64,000 nucleotides of DNA from Bifidobacterium boum (GTDB taxonomy: Bacteria; Actinomycetota; Actinomycetes; Actinomycetales; Bifidobacteriaceae): contig NZ_JGYQ01000015.1 in assembly GCF_000741535.1 (NCBI RefSeq), positions 1 through 64,000 of the forward strand. The letters run 5' to 3'. The translations under genes and the position numbers were made by a program. Under the pieces are notes generated by a model, which worked only from the letters and a program-made list of their open reading frames with translations, did no database searches and was not told the origin of the DNA. Position 1 is the stretch's first letter. Each line of letters opens with the position of its first letter. Below, piece after piece: positions 58,635 through 64,000 of this stretch.

Positions 58635-59217
58635 AACTTCCTCTCCGCAGCGATGGCGGAGATGTTCGGTTAACACCTTCGCATCTCTGCCCGACTGACT
58701 GTATCAGGCTTTTTCTGAGGATGCTGGAATGTGAGTGGCGTCACATGCGAACAATCGAAATGTTCGTTTCCGTGATGATTTTCGGGTTGATTGTGCGGTG
58801 CTGCGCGGTTCGCGCAAGCGATGATGTTCGGTTGCGATTGAGGGTTGCGTTACGGCGCGAACCGTGCAGCGTACGACAGCTTGGCACAAAACAGCTCGAG
58901 GAGAATACAAACTAGCTACACCAAGAAACCCACCAGCGTAAACAGTTCGAGAAACCACACAAACCAGCCACACCAACAAACCCACCAACGTAAACAGTTT
59001 GAGAGGGGCTCTAATGCATAGCTCCGGCGCGGCAGCCAAACAAACCCCATTCCATCCCCGACTTTTCACAGGTAGATCGACACTACAAGACTGATTTATA
59101 CGGGCTTATACACCGCGATACTTTTCTATACTCGTGGCAAATATGACAGAAACATACCCATCAGTAAAGTCGCAGCATTTCCTCAGATTACGTACGACCG
59201 TGACCAGCAAACCAGCA
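58635..59217. other. Intergenic region with tandem family C repeats
   Basis: No gene. Upstream of the OFA gene; contains the two 45-bp repeats at 58907-59003. The remainder, including the AT-rich stretch 59080-59140, shows nothing recognisable. Confidence 0.4.
58907..59003. repeat. Two tandem 45-bp repeats (family C)
   Basis: Units at 58907-58951 and 58959-59003, 7 bp apart, both starting ACAAAC and ending CGTAAACAGTTYGAG. They have the same length as, and share both ends with, the palindromic unit at 13484-13528. Two copies only, so not a CRISPR array. Confidence 0.55.
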
Positions 59218-60366
59218 TCACATTCCAGCGGCCATTGTCTGCCGGCGGGCGGCGACGACGGCGTTAAGACGGACGAGGTCATCCGGGGCGAGATCAAGTC
59301 GCGCTGCCGCGAAGGAATCGTGGATTTCCTGCGGATTACGGGCGCTGGGAATGGTGAACAGGCGCGGGTATTGCGCCAATTCCCAAGCGAGCGTCACCCG
59401 CTGGTGGGATACGCCGAGCTTCGCCGCGACCTCGCGGAACGGGTCATACGCATGTCGGTCGACCGGGTCAAGGAACCCGCCGAGCGGACTCCAACATACG
59501 AACGCCAAACCCAGTTGCCGGCAGTATTCCAGCGTATGTTCCGGATCGGGGTGCGATGGCGAGAACTGGTTTTGTACGGCGACCAGCCTGTCGCCAAGAA
59601 TCCCCCTCGCGATATCGATCTGTTCGCGGTTCACGCGCGAAATGCCGGCATACCTGATGACGCCGGCATCCAGCAGATCACGCAGGGCGCCGATCTGATC
59701 GGCATATGGCACTGCAGGATCAGGGCCGTGCGAGTACAACAGGTTAAGCGCGTCCACACCGAGGTGCCGCGCTGATTCCTTCGCGTCGCGGATCATAGTT
59801 TCCGGCCGCGAATCCGCCATCCAGCCGTATCGGCTTCCTGCCGCTTGAAGGTGCTGGCGTTCCGGCACGCCACCCGCCGAGGGTGTTTCACGTGGAACAT
59901 CGCCCGTTTCACGTGAAACACTGGAGCAATCGGCATTCACACTGCCGCTGTCCCCTGTTTCACGTGAAACATCCACACAGCCAGCATCGCCAGCGCCTGC
60001 TGTGACGGCTTCACAAGTCCGCCGATATCCGGTTTTGGTGGCAACCAACACGTCTTCACGCGGCCCATTCCATGATGCCAGCGCATCACGGACCAAGAGC
60101 TCGCCATACCCGAGGTCCCCCGGCTCCCCCATCCCCGGACGGCTGGGCAGATAGTACGACCACGCCGTATCCAAATACCGGACACCTTCATCGAGTGCGG
60201 CATGGATTGTCCGTATCGCTGTCTCACGGTCCGGACGCCCCTCGATGGCGAGCGCCATCGTGCCCATGCCGATGCGCGGGATATCAAAGCCCGCGAGTCG
60301 TCCGTCGTATGAGTCACCCTTGCCATGCCTCGTTCGCATGTCGGCATTTTCACCCATATCGGTCAT
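59218..60366 (-). CDS. Aldo/keto reductase with an inserted loop carrying parS-like sites
   Basis: 382 aa. NADPH-dependent aldo/keto reductase fold. Catalytic tetrad: Asp67 and Tyr71/72 in YLDTAWSYY, Lys111 in VATKTGY, His213 in LLYSHGPDP; the late FTIPSARNPQEI binds the cofactor. Residues about 117-172 are an extra Gly/Ser/Thr-rich loop absent from usual family members. It repeats VSRETG (133-138, 150-155) and VPRET (157-161), and the DNA behind these words is GTTTCACGTGAAAC, the ParB-binding parS site. The protein is probably still active because the loop lies between core elements. GAGGTGATGG box upstream of the ATG. Confidence 0.85.
   Translation of the reverse strand: MTDMGENADMRTRHGKGDSYDGRLAGFDIPRIGMGTMALAIEGRPDRETAIRTIHAALDEGVRYLDTAWSYYLPSRPGMGEPGDLGYGELLVRDALASWNGPREDVLVATKTGYRRTCEAVTAGAGDAGCVDVSRETGDSGSVNADCSSVSRETGDVPRETPSAGGVPERQHLQAAGSRYGWMADSRPETMIRDAKESARHLGVDALNLLYSHGPDPAVPYADQIGALRDLLDAGVIRYAGISRVNREQIDIARGILGDRLVAVQNQFSPSHPDPEHTLEYCRQLGLAFVCWSPLGGFLDPVDRHAYDPFREVAAKLGVSHQRVTLAWELAQYPRLFTIPSARNPQEIHDSFAAARLDLAPDDLVRLNAVVAARRQTMAAGM
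59884..59971. promoter_or_regulatory. Cluster of three parS-like ParB-binding sites inside the aldo/keto reductase gene
   Basis: TGTTTCACGTGGAACA (59884-59899, one mismatch), GTTTCACGTGAAAC (59906-59919, perfect 14-mer) and TGTTTCACGTGAAACA (59956-59971, perfect 16-mer) match the near-universal chromosomal parS. Three sites in 88 bp are most unlikely by chance. Such clusters load ParB and condensin near oriC. Confidence 0.85.
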
Positions 60367-60437
60367 TCGCCCATCACCTCGTTATTCCTCGTTGCAGCCC
60401 TGCACCGCGGGCCTGCTGCTTTTCCGCTCCACCCCAC

Positions 60438-60911
60438 TCAGGCGCTCGGGAAATCCCCCAGTTCGATGGTTGGGGTTGGCATGCCCAGCGCACGCATCTC
60501 GACTATCGGGTTCGTGAATTCGCGCTCGCGGTAGATCAGGCCGTCCCGCATTTCGAACGAATAGATGAAATGATTGCGATAGAACACCGGGTCATGGCCG
60601 GGAAGGTTGATATTGCCTTCGCCGTCGCACTCCGCCCACACACGATCCGGATCGTCCGTTGTCCAAATCGTGATATTGCTCCATGCCCAATCAGGGAAAT
60701 GCTCGGACGACCATACGTCATATTTTGCAATATTCTCGCGTCCTTGGGCGAAAACCGGCTCGCCGGAATCCGATGTCCACAATCCGGAAATCCCGTCTTC
60801 GCAGAACAGTTCATGCCGGTGCAGCAGCGCATCGCCGTGTCCGGAATGCAGGTATTTGTCCACCATCGCACGATTGTGTTCGCGGCGTTCTTGTCCATCA
60901 TCGAAACTCAT
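60438..60911 (-). CDS. PhzA/PhzB-like (SnoaL/NTF2-fold) protein
   Basis: 157 aa from the ATG at 60911 (MSFDDGQERREHNRAMVDKY), the usual start of the family; the frame is open further up into the AT-rich element. LHRHELFCEDGISGLWTSD, WSNITIWTTDDPDRVWAECD and the closing REREFTNPIVEMRALGMP are marks of the PhzA/B group of NTF2-like proteins. In phenazine clusters these act on small amine or aldehyde intermediates; no phenazine genes are here, so the role is unknown. It lies at the edge of the acquired element. Confidence 0.75.
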   Translation of the reverse strand: MSFDDGQERREHNRAMVDKYLHSGHGDALLHRHELFCEDGISGLWTSDSGEPVFAQGRENIAKYDVWSSEHFPDWAWSNITIWTTDDPDRVWAECDGEGNINLPGHDPVFYRNHFIYSFEMRDGLIYREREFTNPIVEMRALGMPTPTIELGDFPSA

Positions 60912-61009
60912 ACCCACCACTGTCACCACGACGTCGGACAATCCGTCAACCTCCAAGCGTACGGCCACGCCGCCCATGAAGCGTTTTGTCAAGTGCTTTT
61001 TCGTATTTA

Positions 61010-61057
61010 TTGACATTTTTATAATATTGGAGTATGATTTGTATAACAAATCATACT
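61010..61057 (+). promoter_or_regulatory. Promoter with overlapping palindromic operator of the abrB-glycosyltransferase operon
   Basis: -35 TTGACA (61010-61015), 17-bp spacer, -10 TATGAT (61033-61038). A perfect palindrome AGTATGATTTGT-ATA-ACAAATCATACT (61031-61057) covers the -10, as expected of an autorepressor site for the AbrB-like protein encoded next. TTGGAGGTGA follows as ribosome-binding site. Confidence 0.8.
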
Positions 61058-61072
61058 TTGGAGGTGAATGAA

Positions 61073-61291
61073 ATGAGTGCACAGAAAGGTCAATATGCTT
61101 GGATGGCTACAGTTGGTGAAAAGGGACAGATTGTAATACCCAAGCAGGCACGCGAGATATTTGGAATAAAGCCCGGCGACACCTTATTTCTTTTCGGGGA
61201 CGAGAAAAGAGGAATTGTAATTCCTCCGAAAGAGGAGTTTTCGGAGCTGTTTGGCAAGGTGTTTCTTGAAAAGGACGGCGATAACAAATGA
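61073..61291 (+). CDS. AbrB/SpoVT-type DNA-binding repressor
   Basis: 72 aa from the ATG at 61073 (GGAGGTGA 5-6 nt upstream). The swapped-hairpin AbrB domain is clear: MATVGEKGQIVIPKQAREIFGIKPGDTLFLFGDEKRGI. It is short and without a further domain, as in antitoxin-like or local repressors. The stop overlaps the start of the glycosyltransferase (ATGA), so the two are co-translated. It probably represses its own operon through the palindrome at 61031-61057. Confidence 0.88.
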   Translation: MSAQKGQYAWMATVGEKGQIVIPKQAREIFGIKPGDTLFLFGDEKRGIVIPPKEEFSELFGKVFLEKDGDNK

Positions 61292-62892: not shown

Positions 62893-64000
62893 ACCGTTCA
62901 TGCTCATGCTTCCGTGTCGGCTGTTCTCTGCCGTTTTCTTCTTTCAGAATACTGTAAACATTCCTGCGGATTTGCTCCACTTCCTTGACCTCATCTTTGA
63001 GCGTGTAATACTGTTGGGTCAGTAGTTTCTTCTCGCCGCTTAGCTTGTCGCGTTCCGCTTTCCACACCTTGGAATACCTGTCTTGCCGTTCATCACGGCG
63101 TTCAGATAGCGTTCTGCGGCTTCGTAGTGGGTCAGTTCCATGCGGTGGCTTTCGTAAAACGCTTCCTGCTTTTTCGGCTTCTGCTGTTTGTATTTTCTGT
63201 AAATATCGCGGTACTGAAAATACTTCTCGGCATTTGAAATATGCTCGTCAAGGGTTTTCAATCGCCTGTCTATGGGTTTCAGTTTTTCCGCAATGCTGCG
63301 CTGCTTGCCGTACATATCCTCAACCTTTTCTTCCAGTCCCGCCATATCCTTAATGTCGTTTGTCTGCAAAAACATCAGCATATTCGCAGCCGCTTTCAGA
63401 TTGTGGATAGTGGTGTATCGGCTCTGTTTTCCGCTTTGTTCACGCTTTGACAAGATACCCTGTATCACGTCGGCAAGGGTGGGCGGTTCGGTGTTGGCAG
63501 CTTCTTCTTTCAGCCAGTTTTGCAGCTTGGATATACGCGCTTTAAGCTGCCGCAAACGCTGATTTGTGACTTCGATTTCTCGGTTGAGGTTGCCGCGCTC
63601 GGTGCGTATTCCTCGCTTCTCCATCTGAAAAGCCGCCACGCCTAAATGAACGGTGGGGATTTGGTCTATCCCTTGCCGCGCATAGCTGCGGTGATCTATA
63701 CGCTCGGCGTGTCCGTTCTGTTCCAATGCCCGATTGCAGATTTCAGCCCATGCCGACCGCCATTCCTCCGCTTTTGTCTGCTCGTTCCAATCGGTGGCGG
63801 GAATGGATTTGCATTTGTAGGAACGCTTTTTCGGGTCATAGATTTTGTTTCCGTCCCTGTCAAGAATATACTCTTTTTTCTGTTTTACTCCCCATGTGCC
63901 GTCCTGCTCAATGGGGCGTATCGTCAGCATAATATGGGCGTGAGGGTTGCCGTCCTCTTTGTCGTGTATGGCTATGTCAGCGCACATTCCCACATTTACA
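62891..64000 (-). pseudogene. MobA/MobL-family relaxase, 3' portion, frameshifted and cut by window edge
   Basis: The frame enters at the window edge (VNVGMCADIAIHDKEDGNPHAHIMLTIRP spans the region) and holds the relaxase metal-binding HxH motif NPHAHIML. A long coiled-coil-like region and the AAERYLNAVMNGKTG block follow. At 63067-63072 (CCTTGG, expected CCTTTGG) one base is missing. The proper end continues in another frame: KVWKAERDKL, LTQQYYTLKDEVKEVEQIRR, stopping at 62891. Without the shift it ends abruptly at 63040. MobA/MobL relaxases nick oriT of mobilizable plasmids and integrative elements. The loss is confined to the C-terminal tail, so the enzyme might still work. Confidence 0.85.

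Follow-up and report, generated by a model that had tools for sequence, protein, structure and literature searches.

The ParB-binding sequence parS is already documented within genes, and the available text of three sources describes the systems closest to the one reported here. Nine of the ten parS sites of Pseudomonas aeruginosa most likely lie in coding sequence (PMC4368675), parS1 of Corynebacterium glutamicum lies in trpCF (PMC7083940), and hairpin signatures accompany the parS sites that Limosilactobacillus reuteri has at -180 and +206 kb (PMC10197239). Three parS matches in an aldo/keto reductase (AKR) gene of a Bifidobacterium are a new example of this known phenomenon.

As far as these sources describe them, each system shares some features with the AKR locus and lacks others. 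P. aeruginosa also has several sites of the same kind that fall mostly within coding sequence, but here three sites occupy one variable loop and, as far as sequences were read, a single lineage of the genus (PMC4368675). C. glutamicum is likewise an actinobacterium, and its ten sites lie on one side of oriC with one of them in a gene. However, those sites form one 35-kb cluster 73 kb from oriC, whereas a core at parAB is accompanied here by satellites, and ParB loads SMC in C. glutamicum while smc is broken in the genome studied here (PMC7083940). L. reuteri has satellite parS sites, 180-206 kb from the origin, with contact patterns of their own; these are single sites in a species with Smc-ScpAB, whereas here an intact smc is seemingly missing (PMC10197239). 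Judged by title and the start of the abstract, in a literature scope lying mostly outside subscription journals, none of the papers listed deals with parS inside Bifidobacterium genes; the available text of one source counts parS in a genome set that includes a Bifidobacterium (PMC10197239).

The window is the whole 64-kb stretch of DNA that was analysed, C15:1-64000 of a 2.17-Mb genome assembled in 18 contigs and 99.42% complete. The features discussed below have the following window coordinates.

59218-60366, minus strand: aldo/keto reductase (AKR) gene, an ORF of 382 aa matching Pfam PF00248 (Aldo_ket_red) at 4.9e-55
59863-60009, minus strand: variable loop of the AKR protein, residues about 120-168, with AlphaFold2 pLDDT < 50 at 120-167
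59885-59898, no strand assigned: parS with one mismatch (GTTTCACGTGGAAC on the plus strand), reading VPRET on the minus strand
59906-59919, no strand assigned: parS, perfect 14-mer, reading VSRET
59957-59970, no strand assigned: parS, perfect 14-mer (the perfect 16-mer is 59956-59971), reading VSRET

The preliminary description of this DNA claimed two perfect and one single-mismatch parS copies close together, translated as VSRET/VPRET repeats, and both statements are confirmed. The perfect copies match the 14-mer GTTTCACGTGAAAC, and the three sites together span 86 bp (59885-59970). All lie within the AKR ORF in frame 0 of the minus strand, where they occupy bases 397-482 of the gene and encode VSRET (from residue 133), VSRET (from 150) and VPRET (from 157), residues 133-161 in all. 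The 16-mer form TGTTTCACGTGAAACA, a consensus that also appears in PMC10197239 in its available text, is perfect in one copy and matches 15/16 positions in the remaining two. These are the only parS matches in the window when up to three mismatches are allowed, a threshold at which a mean of 2.76 is expected by chance, which has no bearing on the perfect copies. The number of perfect copies expected from base composition is 1.3e-4 for the window and 0.004 for the whole genome.

Nine perfect and seven one-mismatch parS sites exist in the genome as a whole. With up to two mismatches the count is 23, versus 2 for a control in which the parS pattern is read backwards, and this reversed pattern has no exact match in any of 112 genomes of the genus. 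Exact parS is present in 96 of these genomes and absent from 16. The three matches in the AKR gene are not due to chance, because nine perfect genomic copies stand against about 0.004 expected and because their spelling is more parS-like than the peptide would need. They have the consensus palindrome of chromosomal parS (two perfectly, one with a mismatch) in a genome enriched for it.

Most of the perfect sites are on the contig of the window. Two are in the AKR gene at 59.9 kb, two lie at 117.8-118.0 kb between deformylase-like and PAP2-like genes (names assigned by eye), and three lie at 219.5-221.6 kb, one between an rsmG-like gene and parA (both also named by eye) and two within parB. The remaining two lie on other contigs, one within jetD (C6) and one within an ABC-F-like gene (C13). 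The densest cluster is the one at parAB (C15:219525-221553), with three perfect and three one-mismatch sites within about 2 kb. The dnaA gene is at C15:213942-215591, on the same contig as the AKR sites; these are 154-156 kb (7% of the genome) away from it, and the core cluster is at a distance of about 160 kb from them. The suggestion that the replication origin is near is therefore loosely correct.

Complete relatives provide a reference for these distances. The dnaA gene is at the start of the record in 11 one-contig relatives, and nine of these have exact parS, at 46 sites in total. In the five whose length is exactly known (G001, G018, G019, G040 and G060), 24 of 33 sites are no more than 10 kb from dnaA, and nine are satellites at distances of up to about 220 kb; the remaining 13 of the 46 belong to four genomes with length given only as a rounded figure. 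The best AKR match falls at +110 to +241 kb in eight of the 11 relatives, near the other end of the record in G006, and at 826 and 757 kb in G014 and G043, where it may be a paralogue. The ABC-F-like gene of C13 maps to +257 to +420 kb in all eight of eight complete relatives. The jetD site on C6 has a gluQRS-like gene 20 kb away, which is 231-322 kb before the record end in the five relatives of known length, towards the record end in G027 and G014, and at +358 kb in G011. From these syntenic positions we infer that the C6 and C13 sites are on the origin side as well. By copy count and by distance to dnaA and parAB, a check proposed in the preliminary description, the sites look origin-proximal and not evenly spread, with a core at parAB and the C6 and C13 sites placed by synteny only. 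An even spread, which that description had named as a refuting outcome, did not appear. Dispersal of parS round the genome is rejected on these positions. An identical 25-bp context surrounds parS outside any ORF of 120 aa at G060:C1:2236660 and 2261048, which are 24 kb apart, and at G018:C1:1972021.

The genome also encodes a probable cognate ParB. Its gene comes after a parA-like gene in the core cluster, and its product is close to solved ParBs. The helix-turn-helix reads SKSR...NT...GHAR, in which SKSR and GHAR align by eye to R173 and G201 in Caulobacter numbering; these residues are reported, in the available text of the source from which the numbering was transferred, as conserved in ParBs and linked to parS recognition (PMC7383237). 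Enrichment across the genome, the parS-type recognition residues of this ParB and the DNA-level spelling together make it very probable that the AKR-gene sites are real parS. A second ParB-family protein occurs at G000:C7:23829-24338 (100.7 bits, over the cut-off).

The spelling of the sites was compared with what the peptide permits. VSRE(T) with TCN and CGN codons has 128 possible spellings, GTNTCNCGNGARAC, and nine of the nine places in this genome that match this pattern are exact parS. Other spellings occur in relatives, with one in JCM 1207 (G101), one in G100 and two in G008. Given VSRE, codon usage in 12 ORFs of the genome (7605 codons) predicts the parS spelling with a probability of 0.001. 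By our own gene calls, six of the nine perfect sites are in genes (two in AKR, two in ParB before its conserved domain, one each in the ABC-F-like gene and JetD) and three are intergenic. One of the three parS reading frames contains TGA and is hence forbidden in coding sequence. The perfect in-gene sites use the VSRET or FHVK frames, and a one-mismatch site with TGG occurs near the end of the gluQRS-like gene. Not all of these sites need occupy a loop, the one in JetD being a case in point.

The AKR gene encodes an ordinary enzyme. D66, Y71, K111 and H213, which we take to be the AKR catalytic tetrad, are invariant among 29 aligned proteins, and the loop is positioned just after the strand that bears K111. 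In the AlphaFold2 model, a modest one (mean pLDDT 67, built on 29 sequences), residues 120-167 are the longest of seven segments with pLDDT under 50, the six others being shorter, and the variable loop is probably disordered. Defined as the stretch between TKTGY and DSRPE (by motif in 56 loci and by eye in two), a segment of variable length is present at this position in all 58 AKR loci read, which comprise two sets of 30 and 28 drawn partly from the same genomes and including this one. It is 26-79 residues long with about 18 constant, so that the variable part ranges from about 8 residues in the shortest loci to about 60, with 52 in the window. The loop peptide is not conserved among these loci. 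The preliminary description thus located the sites correctly in a loop of a conserved enzyme gene, but the loop is not extra, and its proposed origin as an insertion accommodating a centromere does not agree with its presence in every locus read. Insertion of the loop together with parS is rejected for the same reason.

Next to the AKR gene, a 6.1-kb insertion with 47% G+C extends from about 60977 to the window end at 64000 and on to C15:67066; JCM 1207 does not have it. The insertion begins on its left within a PHZA_PHZB-like ORF (60438-61082), and it carries a MobA/MobL relaxase, a UDP-glycosyltransferase-like gene and a 629-aa large-serine-recombinase-like ORF (assigned by eye). Delivery of parS by this element is rejected, since JCM 1207 has the same three sites without it.

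Among relatives, parS in the AKR gene is rare. A site with at most two mismatches is found in three of 28 named loci and in none of the other 25. The carriers are JCM 1207, with two perfect sites and one imperfect, DSM 20210 (GTTTCCCGTGAAAC) and B. apri (GTTTCACATGAAAC), the latter two each having a single site with one mismatch. One AKR gene therefore has zero, one or three parS sites depending on the relative, and among the loci read the loop sites are confined to the B. thermophilum/B. apri lineage. The orthologue alignment, which had been suggested as a means of asking whether loop and palindromes are conserved together, indicates that they are not, which is one of the outcomes that the preliminary description had named as refuting it. 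By these sequence comparisons, parS at the AKR locus is dispensable in the genus, a point against the satellite explanation given below, because a site is missing from 25 of 28 named orthologues and exact parS from 16 of 112 genomes. The flanking codons (GAT before, ACA-CCC after) suggest that the DSM 20210 and B. apri sites correspond to the third, imperfect copy in the window; a MAFFT alignment agrees for B. apri but pairs the site of DSM 20210 with the middle copy. These single one-mismatch sites could reflect slow decay.

Comparison with JCM 1207, the closest relative, finds no difference at the 42 site bases versus 96 differences at 1104 bases elsewhere in the gene; at third positions the figures are 0/12 and 56/370. 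Outside the sites the loop has changed little as well (7/147 bases, 4/51 third positions), and for this reason the conservation of the sites is weak evidence on its own and does not by itself prove selection. The JCM 1207 and DSM 20210 records (L053 and L055), both labelled B. thermophilum, have AKR identities to the window of 93% and 81%. We take both to be names of the B. thermophilum type strain, and one of the two labels may be wrong. In B. callitrichos and B. santillanense, a perfect in-frame parS reading VSRET occurs about 2 kb past AKR in an ABC-exporter-like gene (by eye), at L070:3775 and L080:7993.

The preliminary description also invoked loading of condensin by parS. Such loading is doubtful at the AKR sites, because the only smc found is a broken remnant. 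A loading site needs a working SMC in the same cell, but a search of the genome with an SMC model recovers nothing more than fragments with a broken frame at C7:334066-336075. They are spread over three frames, include a stop and all stay below the cut-off. The remnant is about 2.0 kb long, versus a model of 1181 positions. An intact smc was not found in this genome, where 99.42% completeness and 18 contigs make a copy in an assembly gap possible. The SMC model has other, weak matches, among them the JetC encoded in a JetABCD operon. About 5.9 kb at the smc locus is replaced by 1.6 kb in JCM 1207, and a search of that syntenic place (G101:C4, L151) found no smc fragment there. Twenty 20-kb samples of the complete relative G001 (400 kb of 2.09 Mb), in which gene order differs, also yielded none. 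A 2013 review states in its available text that nearly all actinobacteria have Smc, ScpA and ScpB (PMC4255298), while in the available text of PMC10197239 the Bifidobacterium is entered with a distant MksBEF homologue and not among the seven genomes with Smc-ScpAB. The JetABCD operon, a type I Wadjet, is complete at G000:C6:30108-37263; the perfect parS in its jetD reads VSRET and is shared with JCM 1207.

We consider it likely that the three sites are genuine parS and belong to the chromosomal ParABS system as a satellite on the origin side. They would have arisen, and increased in number, at a place where VSRET or VPRET is tolerated in the protein. Other readings overlap partly with one another and with this one. 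That the AKR locus is itself the main centromere, as previously proposed, draws on its three sites in 86 bp, but the parAB-linked core some 160 kb away has twice that number, three of them perfect, and the concentration of exact sites within 10 kb of dnaA in the five relatives of known length points the same way, so this proposal is very improbable and is not upheld. Selection for VSRET repeats as protein, with parS a coincidence, would account for the one frame that the three copies share. It can be given almost no credence, since every match to the 128 spellings in this genome is exact parS, three perfect sites are intergenic by our gene calls, and the loop peptide is not conserved.

A regulatory use is quite unlikely. 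ParB on these sites would then mainly control the AKR gene or its neighbours, much as P. aeruginosa ParB at the intergenic sites parS3 and parS4 represses adjacent genes, but the available text of that study reports other genes of the parS1-4 region as unchanged (PMC7022226). The AKR sites, moreover, are at gene bases 397-482, which is not a promoter position, and promoter-like matches in 59000-60700 are at chance level (one found, 0.8 expected). The loop might instead have gained parS in the past and now carry neutral copies, kept by recent ancestry rather than use. The small number of changes throughout the loop in the comparison with JCM 1207 and the single one-mismatch sites of DSM 20210 and B. 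apri are consistent with such a history. Against it, two of three copies are perfect in both the window and JCM 1207, and one-mismatch forms also occur in core parAB clusters and so need not be dead; we regard it as unlikely.

The satellite explanation draws on what can be seen in the DNA, namely the sites and how they are spelled as DNA, the variable loop and its age, a gain restricted to one lineage, and the position relative to dnaA. From it we infer ParB binding, nucleation and a segregation benefit at the AKR sites. ParB would load at these sites as at the parAB core cluster, adding a further nucleation zone that may help to hold the origin region as one partition complex. The palindrome, read as VSRET or VPRET, would be harmless in an old, variable and probably disordered loop, and the existence of such a tolerant loop of variable length in AKR may explain why the sites sit in a gene. 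A more speculative and, taken whole, improbable extension is that the B. thermophilum lineage lost SMC and gained parS satellites in variable loops and linkers (AKR, ParB, the ABC-F-like protein and JetD of a Wadjet/MksB-type system). The origin region would in that case be held together by several ParB nucleation zones in place of SMC, JetABC possibly being involved, and protein disorder would determine the places to which a centromere can spread.

The AKR case suggests that a centromere-like DNA signal can settle in coding sequence by way of a tolerated frame and a variable loop. The presence of zero, one or three sites in one gene among relatives offers a natural series for dating and testing the gain of satellite parS, and the broken smc in the same genome makes this a possible system for asking what parS satellites do without SMC.
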